From NCBI RefSeq assembly GCF_002750975.1, contig NZ_PEJS01000002.1, forward strand, positions 356,093-420,092: a stretch of 64,000 bases of DNA, in the 5' to 3' direction. Below, piece by piece: positions 17,998-20,864 of this stretch (its first letter is position 1; each line of letters opens with the position of its first letter). This stretch comes from Stenotrophomonas indicatrix. Lineage in GTDB: Bacteria > Pseudomonadota > Gammaproteobacteria > Xanthomonadales > Xanthomonadaceae. Position numbers and translations under genes: made by a program. The notes under the pieces were generated by a model that saw only the letters and a list, made by a program, of their open reading frames with translations, did not search any database and was not told the origin of the DNA.

Positions 17998-19212
17998 ATG
18001 ATCGGCAGCGATCGTCCTCGCCTGGAATCTTCCGTGCCACCGAGCTGGCTTGCGTCCCTGCTGCGCCCTGCCCCGGATTCGGCGGTGGCCGAACTGCTGC
18101 GGCGTGGCAAGTCGCCCTGGAGTGGTGCGATCCACCTGCTGTGGTCGGTCTGGATCTTCCTCACCCCGGTGCTCGGGAATGGCTTCACGCTGCGCTGGCT
18201 GTTGCTGACGCTGGCCAGCTATCCGTTGTTCCTGCTGTTCTATGCCAGGGTGATGCTGGCGCCACGGCACCACGCCTGGCGCTACGCGCTGGGCATGATT
18301 GCGATGGCCCTGGTGCTGCTGCCGTGGTATCCGTCGGGACTGAGCTACTTCGTGTTCGGCTGCGTGATGATCCGCATGAGCAGCCGCGGCGGCTGGTGGG
18401 TGTACCTGTTGCAGCTCACTGGCCTGAATCTCCTGTTCTGCAGCACCGCGCTCTACTTCGGTTATCCGTGGCAGGCCATGGTGTGGATGCCGGCGGTATC
18501 GTTCATTGTCGGGCTGGTGGTCAACGTGGAGGCCTTGAGCCATCAGCGTGACGTTGCCCTGCAGCTGTCCCAGGACGAGGTGCGGCGCCTGGCGACCACC
18601 GCCGAGCGCGAGCGCATCGGCCGTGATCTGCATGACCTGCTGGGGCATACGCTGTCATTGATCACGCTGAAGCTGGAACTGGCGCGCAAGCTGTACGACC
18701 GCGATGACGCGCGTGCCCGGCAGGAAATCGGCGAGGCCGAGGACATTGCCCGCGAGGCGCTGGCGCAGGTACGCAGTGCGGTCACCGGCATCCGCGCCAG
18801 CGACCTGGCCGGCGAACTGGCCTCGGCACGCCTGCTGCTGGAATGCCAACAGGTACACCTGCAGTACATGCCGCCGCCGCCGATGCCAGTGGAGGTAGAG
18901 CGTGGGCTGGCACTGGTGCTGCGCGAGGCGGCGACCAACATCGTGCGCCACGCGCAGGCGACCCGGGTGCAGGTGGATTTCATGCTTGAGGACCGACAGT
19001 TGGTGATGCAGATACGCGATGACGGCCGTGGTGGCGTGCAGGCCGAGGGCAACGGATTGTGTGGCATGCGTGAGCGCGCAGCGGCGCTGGGTGGCCAGTT
19101 GACGCTGCAGTCGCCGCGCGGGGAAGGCACGCTGCTGACCGTGCGCGTGCCCCTGGTGGCCGCGACTACGCCGCTGTCGCCGGCATCGCTGGCACAGGGA
19201 GGCGCGGCATGA
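17998..19212 (+). CDS. Sensor histidine kinase, DesK-like
   Basis: 404-residue membrane kinase. Five or so hydrophobic helices span about residues 35-180 with no large periplasmic domain, as in DesK-type sensors of the membrane state. A HisKA_3 dimerisation helix follows, with the phosphoacceptor His212 in RDLHDLLGHTLSLI. The C-terminal ATPase domain carries EAATNIVRHAQ (N-box), DDGRGG and GLCGMRERAAALGG. It begins 7 bases after the truncated ATPase stop and overlaps the response regulator start by 4 bases (ATGA). It probably once controlled the lost ABC exporter and may now act on other targets. Confidence 0.92.
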   Translation: MIGSDRPRLESSVPPSWLASLLRPAPDSAVAELLRRGKSPWSGAIHLLWSVWIFLTPVLGNGFTLRWLLLTLASYPLFLLFYARVMLAPRHHAWRYALGMIAMALVLLPWYPSGLSYFVFGCVMIRMSSRGGWWVYLLQLTGLNLLFCSTALYFGYPWQAMVWMPAVSFIVGLVVNVEALSHQRDVALQLSQDEVRRLATTAERERIGRDLHDLLGHTLSLITLKLELARKLYDRDDARARQEIGEAEDIAREALAQVRSAVTGIRASDLAGELASARLLLECQQVHLQYMPPPPMPVEVERGLALVLREAATNIVRHAQATRVQVDFMLEDRQLVMQIRDDGRGGVQAEGNGLCGMRERAAALGGQLTLQSPRGEGTLLTVRVPLVAATTPLSPASLAQGGAA

Positions 19213-19811
19213 TCCGCATACTGCTGGCCGAAGATCAGGCGATGGTGCGCGGCGCATTGTCGGCGTTGCTGGGCCTGGAACCGGATATCGAGGTACTGGG
19301 CAGTGCTGCCGACGGCGAAGCCGCCTGGCGCATGCTGCAGCAGCTGCAGCCGGACATCCTGGTCACCGACATTGAGATGCCGGGGCTGAGCGGGCTGGAA
19401 CTGGCCCAGCGCATCGCCCGCCATGAACTGCCGATCAAGGTGGTGATCGTGACCACCTTCGCCCGTGCCGGTTTCCTGCGTCGCGCATTGGAAGCGGGTG
19501 TACTGGGCTATCTGCTGAAAGATGCACCGGCCGAGAACCTGGCCGAGGCACTGCGCAAGGTGAAGCAGGGCATCCGTGCGATCGATCCGCAGCTGGCGCT
19601 GGATGCGTGGTCGCAGGCCGACCCGCTGACCGACCGCGAGCGCCGCGTACTGCGCCTGGCAGGCGAGGGCCGCACCGCCAGCGAGATCGCCGAGCAGCTG
19701 GGGCTGTCGCACGGCACGGTGCGCAATTACCTGTCCGAATGCATTGGCAAGCTGGGCGTGGCCAACCGGATCGAGGCGTACCGGCTGGCGCGGCAGAAGG
19801 GGTGGTTGTAG
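19209..19811 (+). CDS. LuxR/NarL-family response regulator, DesR-like
   Basis: 200-residue regulator with a receiver domain (Glu8-Asp9 acidic pair, phosphoacceptor Asp54 in VTDIEMPG, Lys104 in YLLKDAP) and a C-terminal LuxR helix-turn-helix (LTDRERRVLRLAGEGRTASE, then GLSHGTVRNYLS). Partner of the kinase immediately upstream through an overlapping start. Likely binds DNA as a phosphorylated dimer; candidate sites are the palindromes at 17563-17589. Confidence 0.93.
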   Translation: MIRILLAEDQAMVRGALSALLGLEPDIEVLGSAADGEAAWRMLQQLQPDILVTDIEMPGLSGLELAQRIARHELPIKVVIVTTFARAGFLRRALEAGVLGYLLKDAPAENLAEALRKVKQGIRAIDPQLALDAWSQADPLTDRERRVLRLAGEGRTASEIAEQLGLSHGTVRNYLSECIGKLGVANRIEAYRLARQKGWL

Positions 19812-19817
19812 GGGGGC

Positions 19818-20276
19818 GTCACTTTCTTTGCTCGTGCAAAGAAAGTAACCAAAGAAACACGCCGCCGGCCGCGAGCCGGTGCTGCGCACCGGTACCCTGC
19901 GCTTCTCGGTGAATCAGGGGACGGCGCCGAACTCGCTGCGCTCAGACATCGGCGCCTCTTCGCCCCTGATTCCCCTGCGATGCTCGGCTCGCTAGAAGGC
20001 GGAATGGAAGGTCAAGATCAACGGCAAAGGCATCCACGCATGGCGTGGATCTACTGGGTGCAGCTGCGGCTTTTGACGTTGGGTCCGCCTTCAAGCGAGC
20101 CGAGCACCGCAGGTCCGGCGAGGGCGCAGAGGCGCGGGTGTCTGAGCGCAGCGAGTTCCGCGCCGTCCCTCGGCGGACCGAGGAGCACAGGGCACCGGCG
20201 TGCGAAGCACGCCGGCTCGTGGCTGGCGGCGCGTTTCTTTTGGTTACTTTTCTTTTCGCGCGAAAAGAAAAGTGAC
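19818..20276. repeat. Inverted pair of about 180-bp structured repeat units
   Basis: The left unit (19818-19993) and right unit (20094-20276) are the same element in opposite orientations, about 100 bp apart. Each unit has, in order, a hairpin at the outer end, a second short hairpin and a large nested stem. The loop ACTCGCTGCGCTCAGACA is identical in both. Stem sequences differ between units but pairing is kept: ACTTTCTTTGC/GCAAAGAAAGT versus ACTTTTCTTTTCGC/GCGAAAAGAAAAGT; CCGGTGC/GCACCGG versus CCGGCGTGC/GCACGCCGG; GAATCAGGGG/CCCCTGATTC versus a different 13-bp outer stem; GGCGCCGA/TCGGCGCC versus GGCGCGG/CCGCGCC. Open frames across it are side effects of composition, not genes. I recall similar sequence scattered through Xanthomonas and Pseudomonas genomes but no established name. 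Confidence 0.85.
20032..20054. repeat. SMAG-type palindrome inside the inverted repeat
   Basis: ATCCACGCATGGCGTGGAT followed by CTAC, an inverted ATCCACGC-subtype unit. It lies in the spacer between the two arms of the larger structured repeat. Confidence 0.75.
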
Positions 20277-20327
20277 ACCCCTCCGCAGTCGCGAAAAAGG
20301 GCAGCCGGGAACCCCCGGCGAACCCAT

Positions 20328-20864
20328 TCAATCCTTCCCGCGTGCCATCGCCTGGAACACGCCATCGCGGCGCACCCACAGGTGGAACAGCGCCGCACCC
20401 ACGTGCATCAGCACCGTGGCGAACAACACATAGGCCAGCAGGCTGTGCGCATTGCGCAGCGCGGCGTACAGCGCTGGCGTGTGCGGCACGATCGGCGGCA
20501 GGTGCAGGCCACCGCCCAGCACGATCGGGTAGCCGCCGGCCGACAGCATCGCCCAGCCGATCAGCGGCATCGCCAGCATCAACGCGTACAGCATCCAGTG
20601 CGAAGCCTTCGCCGCCAGCACCTGCCACGCGGGAAGATCCGCTGGCAGCGGCGGTGGGCGATGGCGCAGGCGGTTGTACAGGCGCAGCACCGCCAGCAGC
20701 AGGATGGCGATACCCAGCGGCCGGTGCAGGTCGATCAGCATGGGACGCAGGTGCAGCGAGGCGACCATGGTCACGCCGATGAACAGCATGGCGATGATCA
20801 TCAGCGCCATGGACCAGTGCAGCACCCGGGCGAGCAGGTTGAAGTGGCCGTTGCCGGTGCTCAT
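20328..20864 (-). CDS. Cytochrome b561 family protein
   Basis: 178-residue inner-membrane di-heme cytochrome of the bacterial CybB type with four predicted helices. Likely heme ligands are among His16 (LLARVLHW), His47 (DLHRPLGI), His140 (LRNAHSLLAY) and His154 (LMHVGAALFH). Such proteins pass electrons between quinol and a partner. Its start overlaps the stop of the catalase-like gene (ATGA), so the two are translationally coupled; the cytochrome is the plausible electron donor for that peroxidase. Confidence 0.9.
   Translation of the reverse strand: MSTGNGHFNLLARVLHWSMALMIIAMLFIGVTMVASLHLRPMLIDLHRPLGIAILLLAVLRLYNRLRHRPPPLPADLPAWQVLAAKASHWMLYALMLAMPLIGWAMLSAGGYPIVLGGGLHLPPIVPHTPALYAALRNAHSLLAYVLFATVLMHVGAALFHLWVRRDGVFQAMARGKD

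Follow-up and report, generated by a model that had tools for sequence, protein, structure and literature searches.

The inverted pair at positions 19818 to 20276 of the window (the whole 64,000-nucleotide stretch of Stenotrophomonas indicatrix DNA analysed here) appears to be one copy of a dispersed non-coding element whose two units would fold as single-stranded DNA, more likely on what we call the F strand, the opposite of the strand written out in an earlier sequence-only reading. We give this reading a probability of about 0.5. That the element belongs to a real, structured and dispersed superfamily spanning several phyla is close to certain. The best reading of that superfamily is as an undescribed group of dispersed hairpin elements that have no coding role and are acted upon in trans; a search of open-access full text, which does not cover figures, found no description of it.

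The pair and its surroundings in the window comprise the following features.

19209 to 19811, plus strand: response-regulator-like gene (name read from the sequence), an ORF and the upstream neighbour
19818 to 20003, plus strand: unit A, the inverted relative of unit B
19818 to 19849, plus strand: H1 of unit A, an outer A/T-rich hairpin, GTCACTTTCTTTGC..GCAAAGAAAGTAAC (inverted repeat)
19862 to 20002, plus strand: core of unit A, made of P1, P2, hairpin H2 and the long arm P4-P6 (model R1, fold, covariation)
19930 to 19948, plus strand: tip of unit A, the 19-mer AACTCGCTGCGCTCAGACA (sequence match)
20004 to 20083, no strand: spacer between the units (sequence)
20029 to 20054, minus strand: SMAG-like, GTAG-tagged REP hairpin in the spacer (sequence; SMAG consensus from the accessible part of PMC2613905)
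20084 to 20276, minus strand: unit B, facing unit A
20085 to 20229, minus strand: core of unit B, with a CCG-type arm (model R1, fold)
20139 to 20157, minus strand: tip of unit B, a 19-mer identical to that of unit A (sequence match)
20243 to 20276, minus strand: H1 of unit B, GTCACTTTTCTTTTCGC/GCGAAAAGAAAAGTAAC (inverted repeat)
20278 to 20299, minus strand: second terminator-like hairpin after the b561-like gene, outside the units
20304 to 20319, minus strand: terminator-like hairpin with a T-rich tail directly past the downstream gene, outside the element
20328 to 20864, minus strand: cytochrome b561-like gene (name read from the sequence), an ORF downstream that converges on the pair

The sequence-only reading placed two inverted structured units at these positions, and its coordinates are right. 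Between the stop codon of the response-regulator-like gene and unit A lie 6 nt, and the two arms, 80 nt apart, are complementary at 80% over a 120-nt core. The loop said to be invariant is indeed identical in both units: the 18-base tip ACTCGCTGCGCTCAGACA lies at 19931-19948 and 20139-20156, and these are its 2 matches in the window with up to three mismatches allowed (0.19 expected). Similarly, the H1 motif occurs twice in the window, both times in the units, where none is expected with up to two mismatches allowed. The nested stems described earlier are present and can be refined to an outer H1, a closing stem P1/P2, a small hairpin H2 and a long arm P4-P6 capped by the tip; near the tip, the folding strand may be the reverse of the one drawn. 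As claimed, the stems differ between the units and still pair. P5 reads GAATCAGGGG/CCCCTGATTC in unit A and CCGCCGAGGG/CCCTCGCCGG in unit B, and the H2 hairpin differs as well. Folded as RNA, each unit is more stable than all 200 of its shuffles (z of -3.4 for A and -3.0 for B). The spacer holds the GTAG-tagged hairpin that had been recognised as a SMAG-type unit.

A coding function for the units was rejected: the four ORFs that overlap them contain no Pfam family above cut-off. Rfam returned 0 matches in the window at the gathering threshold. In E-value mode one run gave 0 matches and a further run gave 12, one of them a tRNA outside the element and the others sub-threshold, nearly all to microRNA-hairpin models; none above threshold lies in the element.

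The position of the pair had suggested a structural terminator for convergent transcripts, acting in both directions for the two genes. The units do follow both stop codons, and in 57 gene placements, taken from a crude greedy longest-ORF script, the H1 side points toward gene 3' ends in 36. This orientation bias is mild, however, and 17 of the 57 placements are convergent. Further, no T-tract follows H1, the terminator-like hairpins of the minus-strand gene (two sites found, compared with 0.7 expected from shuffles) lie outside the element, and orthologous loci that lack the element are common. We consider this explanation highly improbable.

The element is present in many copies. In a DNA search of the own genome, the best 40 of 67 candidates were scored. 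These yielded at least 11 full-length copies and 3 shorter ones, not counting 6 places where the palindromic H1 matches itself, and five head-on pairs are among the copies. One full copy (C1:1056244-1056453) has a SMAG-type repeat inserted within its tip, indicating that a tip can be hit and the copy still retained. By eye, the short copies resemble deletions between two direct repeats within the unit.

To find relatives, we used a covariance model, R1, with a core of 141 positions; 16 of the cores on which it was built are of Stenotrophomonas type, and 3 represent a family of the order that is more distantly related. The cores of units A and B score 164.3 and 140.7 bits, respectively, both copies being among the model's own rows. 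Of 274 genomes of the class, 42 have R1 matches, own included (E <= 0.001, strict filters), as do 41 of the 61 genus genomes; copy numbers across the class are minimum values, with the best 11 candidates per genome scored. Fuller scoring of 12 positive genomes gave 3 to 36 copies each and 168 in total, the maximum of 36 in a gammaproteobacterium. The range given in the sequence-only reading, Xanthomonas, Pseudomonas and relatives, was right in including other gammaproteobacteria and far too narrow, as the element spans several phyla.

The wider range was seen by scanning the tip pattern AACTCGCTNCGCTCARACA over named genome contigs, which gave 80 loci among at least 118 stretches; phylum labels were given by hand. 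Among the matches listed, a stem of at least 6 bp is present at the tip in 27 of 28 testable loci of Pseudomonadota, 13 of 16 of Bacteroidota, 10 of 17 of Bacillota, all 6 of Desulfobacterota type, the single loci of Fusobacteriota (1/1) and Nitrospirota (1/1), 1 of 2 of Patescibacteria and 1 of 3 unclassified, and is absent from the single cyanobacterial (0/1) and Nitrospinota (0/1) loci. Random places have such a stem in 55 of 4000 cases. The exact 19-nt tip occurs 2 to 69 times per genome in 19 genomes of several phyla, chosen for holding it, with the maximum of 69 in a Clostridium; a reversed tip pattern, used as a control, has 0 matches in the same 19 genomes. Occurrence within the phylum is patchy. 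The exact tip was found in 21 of 398 genomes of the phylum, labelled as own genus, order or class, and in none of the 398 outside the class, on which ground a whole-phylum range was rejected.

An origin in phages or plasmids was also rejected. The phage collection gave no match to the element, plasmids gave 8 records, mostly for a short stretch amounting to 9-10% of the query, and tips on viral contigs are mostly not in hairpins: 80 viral-contig loci were examined and 79 tested for stems, of which 23 have a stem of at least 7 at the tip, compared with 61 of 90 genome-contig loci. In many phage contigs, the 19-mer sits in repeated, non-hairpin settings that are unrelated as far as seen.

Pairing was followed in three alignments. 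Among the 19 units of the first (A4), 22 of 42 pairs show two-sided changes. In A5, which holds 127 matches (121 distinct units) fitted to the model, all 42 pairs do; 88.8% of cells are paired, a share that falls to 37.3-42.4% after sliding of one strand, and covariation scores 0.654, compared with 0.157 for shuffled alignments. Because A5 is structure-fitted, a cleaner test is A6, a plain MAFFT sequence alignment from one Clostridium genome in which 19 of its 69 copies with a tip are included (20 regions were fetched and one with two tips was excluded). Here, 39 of 82 pairs show two-sided changes, 97.6% of cells are paired (38.4-48.4% when slid), and the covariation score is 0.290 (0.103 shuffled, at most 0.059 slid), values that are somewhat favoured by a structure derived from the same rows. 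These patterns support a constraint on the folded nucleic acid, beyond passive duplication alone, as the sequence-only reading had proposed from two units. That reading had tied its proposal to homologous units elsewhere preserving their pairing, and the covariation among distant units indicates that they do, as far as these counts and scores go.

Template-switch correction can keep palindromes complementary without selection. The units could then be passive palindromes, spread by ordinary duplication and kept matched by such quasi-palindrome correction, with a fold that nothing recognises. The 129 double-changed cells of A6, set against 72 non-Watson-Crick cells, would be in keeping with this, as would the occurrence of arms and spacer in either orientation at one locus (see below), given that close inverted repeats can invert. 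Yet extrahelical bases or bulges and internal loops recur in the arms, though correction should erase them, and the 19-nt tip is kept across several phyla. We regard passive upkeep as improbable.

On the F strand, the tip reads TGTYTGA-GCGNAGC-GAGTT (TGTCTGA-GCGCAGC-GAGTT in unit A), which contains a DNA-type GNA mini-hairpin. According to Hirao and co-workers, a GNA or GNNA loop with two or more closing G-C pairs forms a DNA mini-hairpin of unusual stability (PMC4686876, in the part available), and d(GCGNAGC) itself is called extraordinarily stable (available parts of PMC4686876 and PMC6895277). The tip on F has these same seven bases, although the mini-hairpin is a finding of chemistry and not a genomic element. 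Of 200 hairpins, partly selected by the pattern, 163 carry GCGNAGC as their insert, as do 61 of the 66 seven-base tips of A5. Among 33 distinct A5 inserts of other lengths, 14 end in GNA and 5 in GNNA (4 of these 5 being non-GNRA), and 14 end otherwise or are unparsed; 15 of the 121 units have no parsable tip. Overall, GNNA tips are mostly GNYA rather than GNRA. The share of G-U pairs among cells is 2.2% for A6 and no more than 4.6% for A5 (210/4547), compared with 12.8% in a small control of 13 tRNAs. The class of tip and the scarcity of G-U pairs together suggest that DNA rather than RNA is probably the selected, active form.

In the Clostridium copies, a variable but conserved tail, CCGTCCCCTTGTGAAAA, stands directly 3' of the hairpin on F and is a candidate recognition site. 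At one further locus, a unit carries its tip region twice, as inverted copies, so that one tip is nested with the other.

A folded RNA had been among the earlier proposals; the active form would then be a non-coding transcript of either strand, for example a structured small RNA or a 3'-UTR element. The strong structure and the covariation that this calls for are there, and an excess of G-T over A-C, as in a wobble-tolerant RNA, appears on the earlier strand in the basal stems of A5 and on F near the tip and in Clostridium. Against this stand the low share of G-U pairs and the GNYA preference of the tips, as well as the absence of a sigma-70-type promoter from 19650-20450 (the one promoter class scanned) and of an above-threshold Rfam match. 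The head-on pairs, with no fixed orientation to genes, argue in the same direction. Folded RNA is thus less likely than folded DNA, and we judge it unlikely.

Mismatch types give an indication of which strand folds. We counted isolated mismatches that are flanked by Watson-Crick pairs and lie within 45 nt of the tip in 257 hairpins. As read on F, G-A outnumbers C-T (328 to 20), A-A outnumbers T-T (128 to 19), G-G outnumbers C-C (53 to 9) and G-T outnumbers A-C (111 to 49), with binomial p values from 1e-6 to 6e-73 values that are affected by dependence among sites of one family and by the large contribution of conserved internal loops. In the Clostridium alignment A6, G-T exceeds A-C on F by 34 to 13 (p 0.003). 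Taken over all model pairs, A5 points the other way, with 210 G-T and 99 A-C on the strand of the sequence-only reading. By helix, the G-T and A-C counts on that strand are 16/14 in P1, 51/10 in P2, 15/4 in H2, 84/16 in P4, 36/29 in P5 and 8/26 in P6, the sole A5 helix in which A-C is in excess; the comparison of GA with CT in A5 is mixed between helices. At the base of the arm, columns 80-287 hold a conserved G-T on the earlier strand in 77 of 121 units, and these make up 77 of the 84 in P4, which bears on the choice of strand. The evidence is thus mixed: F is favoured by the tip region and Clostridium only, and the earlier strand by the basal proteobacterial stems. Both strands may be relevant. 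We think it fairly probable that the folding strand is F, with less certainty attached to it as it is read from mismatch types.

The history of the locus was traced in the genus. The response-regulator gene is present in 58 of 61 genus genomes, and the orthologous interval was read in 50 of these 58 (30 loci and 20 fetched); orthologues of the b561-like gene are found by tblastn at 46 of the 50 loci. At the 29 loci whose response-regulator gene is at least 96% identical, model R1 finds two units in 20, one in 4 and none in 5. At one of the five unit-less loci, the interior is deleted between the palindromic H1 hairpins, leaving one fused H1. The remaining 21 loci, from more distant species, show no clear unit (best 14 bits, E 0.55). 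The window copy thus looks old and vertically kept within Stenotrophomonas. By eye, GTAG-tagged repeats border or replace the element at this locus in some relatives, and in a more distant species a different palindrome (GGGGACGGAGGGGATTAAGGCGCAAATGG..), which looks like another repeat family, fills the orthologous gap.

All 20 two-unit loci carry two arms of different type, in one order at 12 and in the other at 8. The spacer is inverted relative to the window in 7 of the 20 pairs, and its orientation tracks arm order in 19 of 20 loci (one weakly), the exception being the genome of the window. The long H1 form was recognised in 4 loci, each time on the right. With both arm orders and both spacer orientations at one locus, either an inversion in place has turned at least the arms and spacer, or the pair was re-inserted in reverse. 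The dissimilarity of the two units is kept throughout, likely because identical units would form one long unstable palindrome.

Paired units have a consistent geometry elsewhere. For 163 units from 13 proteobacterial genomes (150 of the 168 counted in 12 genomes plus 13 of the own genome), neighbours less than 250 nt apart are head-on in 26 of 26 cases, in the orientation of the sequence-only reading; at 250-3000 nt, head-on placement accounts for 5, tandem for 2 and tail-to-tail for 1. One genome has 12 pairs within 3 kb; an alignment of seven of them reveals a composite roughly 550 bp long whose ends are inverted repeats (511-543 bp between the inner marks of these ends), with a spacer of about 50 nt, and each of the seven contains one unit of each of two types. 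Four head-on pairs (L088, L089, L090 and L091) enclose 0.8-2 kb with ORFs without known family, a possible cargo; 5 ORFs from four wide pairs gave no family above cut-off and no transposase. The copies read in Firmicutes and Bacteroidetes consist of a single long hairpin per unit and often stand alone.

Units are multi-copy and mostly intergenic. Copies are on average more alike within a genome than between genomes (identity of 0.70 compared with 0.53), and the nearest relative is in the own genome for 73 of 101 units and elsewhere for 28. Target duplications gave no clean case by eye, and no empty site with a duplication was demonstrated. Multiplication in trans by a putative enzyme is somewhat favoured.

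Two candidate enzymes were considered. The sequence-only reading had suggested a REP-like palindromic element mobilised in trans by a Y1 (RAYT/TnpA-REP) transposase, and the REP-like habit stands: the units are intergenic, in many copies, paired in inverted orientation and of lineage-specific families. Y1_Tnp occurs in 31 of 42 positive genomes compared with 143 of 232 others, a difference with p 0.16. However, it is absent from 4 of 14 element-rich genomes, a unit lies within 1.5 kb at only 3 of 30 Y1 loci, and GTAG/CGTC terminal tags are found in few units. Co-occurrence and adjacency thus reject a Y1 transposase as obligate partner, and mobilisation by Y1 has a very small chance of being correct.

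Alternatively, the units might be attC-like recombination sites on which an integron integrase acts. Their folded-DNA character and the extrahelical bases in their arms resemble such sites, and IntI is mildly enriched, in 24 of 42 positive genomes compared with 85 of 232 others (odds ratio 2.3, p 0.016; these counts, like those for Y1, were compiled by hand). On the other side, 8 IntI loci have no clear adjacent unit (one 14-bit hit, E 0.31), the own genome has no IntI match at E 1e-50, and the RYYYAAC...GTTRRRY box pair is absent from the ends (first and last 25 nt) of all 146 units of A5 and A6, that is, 127 cores and 19 Clostridium units, and from both window units. IntI was rejected as obligate partner, with a weak correlation only, and an attC-type site is a very doubtful identity for the element. 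Among proteins that neighbour units (95 of 135 listed), 119 Pfam families are represented, none in more than 2 proteins, and no transposase is among them.

The element shares the habit of small dispersed palindromic repeats. MITEs, ERIC, Correia, BOX and RUP are non-coding, dispersed small repeats, and the units resemble them in lacking coding capacity, in being dispersed and, in at least the one genome where ends were compared, in having inverted terminal repeats; unlike MITEs, they have an internal fold and a tip conserved across phyla. REPs and BIMEs are described, in the accessible part of PMC3733652, as intergenic dispersed palindromes that form head-head or tail-tail dimers, including heterodimers. 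The units are likewise dispersed, palindromic and paired, and SMAG, the REP of S. maltophilia, is itself in this spacer. REPs, however, are 20-40 bp long with a GTAG/CGTC tag, whereas the units are about 140-220 nt (141 positions in the core, about 220 nt in Clostridium), branched in proteobacteria, equipped with a 19-nt tip common to several phyla and mostly untagged. GTAG/CGTC was found in the first 8 nt of 2 of 127 A5 cores as given and 22 as reverse complement, H1 excluded, and in 0 of 19 Clostridium units.

Two further families are closer in range. MRSC-65-2 is described as very abundant, present in many phyla with dozens of copies per genome and possibly active as DNA (NAR 2024, PMC11109978, in the part available). 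The element resembles it in abundance, spread over many phyla, dozens of copies per genome and a long covarying stem. It differs from the conserved UYCCGG repeat given in the same part of that paper, as two TYCCGG on one strand are found in 4 of 127 and 0 of 19 units. Overlap with MRSC-65-2, from which the element is set apart by the text description, is unlikely. OTH-22-1, found in several phyla, and integron attC sites both have RYYYAAC at the 5' end (accessible part of PMC8632094). They resemble the units as structured DNA sites, OTH-22-1 also in being multi-phylum, and differ in their boxes. Its length and, for most units, the missing tag set the element apart from REPs, the missing boxes set it apart from attC, and it has no Rfam family.

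These features can be combined in a mechanism for folded single-stranded DNA. When F becomes single-stranded, through replication, extrusion or transfer, a unit would fold, and a putative protein supplied in trans would recognise the GNA/GNNA mini-hairpin of the tip together with the conserved bulges. Copies that fold well would then be copied or kept, and the dissimilarity of paired units would probably let each fold on itself and not with its partner. More tentatively, and with the odds against it, the units may be substrates of an unrecognised, widespread system, with a putative enzyme or host factor that reads folded single-stranded DNA through the conserved mini-hairpin. In such a system, they would be counterparts of attC sites or IS200 ends, with the difference that they are dispersed, either alone or in head-on pairs of unlike units able to flank cargo.

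The tip is kept in Pseudomonadota, Bacteroidota, Bacillota, Desulfobacterota, Fusobacteriota and Nitrospirota, and stems that are freely rebuilt around a 19-base tip kept across phyla imply a shared recognising machine. The element may have escaped notice, its copies being taken for spurious small proteins, in which the tip can give SERSEF or FERSEF, or being located at contig ends. If the units do act as folded single-stranded DNA, a direct test is opened, that of finding what binds the tip. The element would further provide an extensive natural collection of palindromes from which to learn how bacterial chromosomes maintain them.
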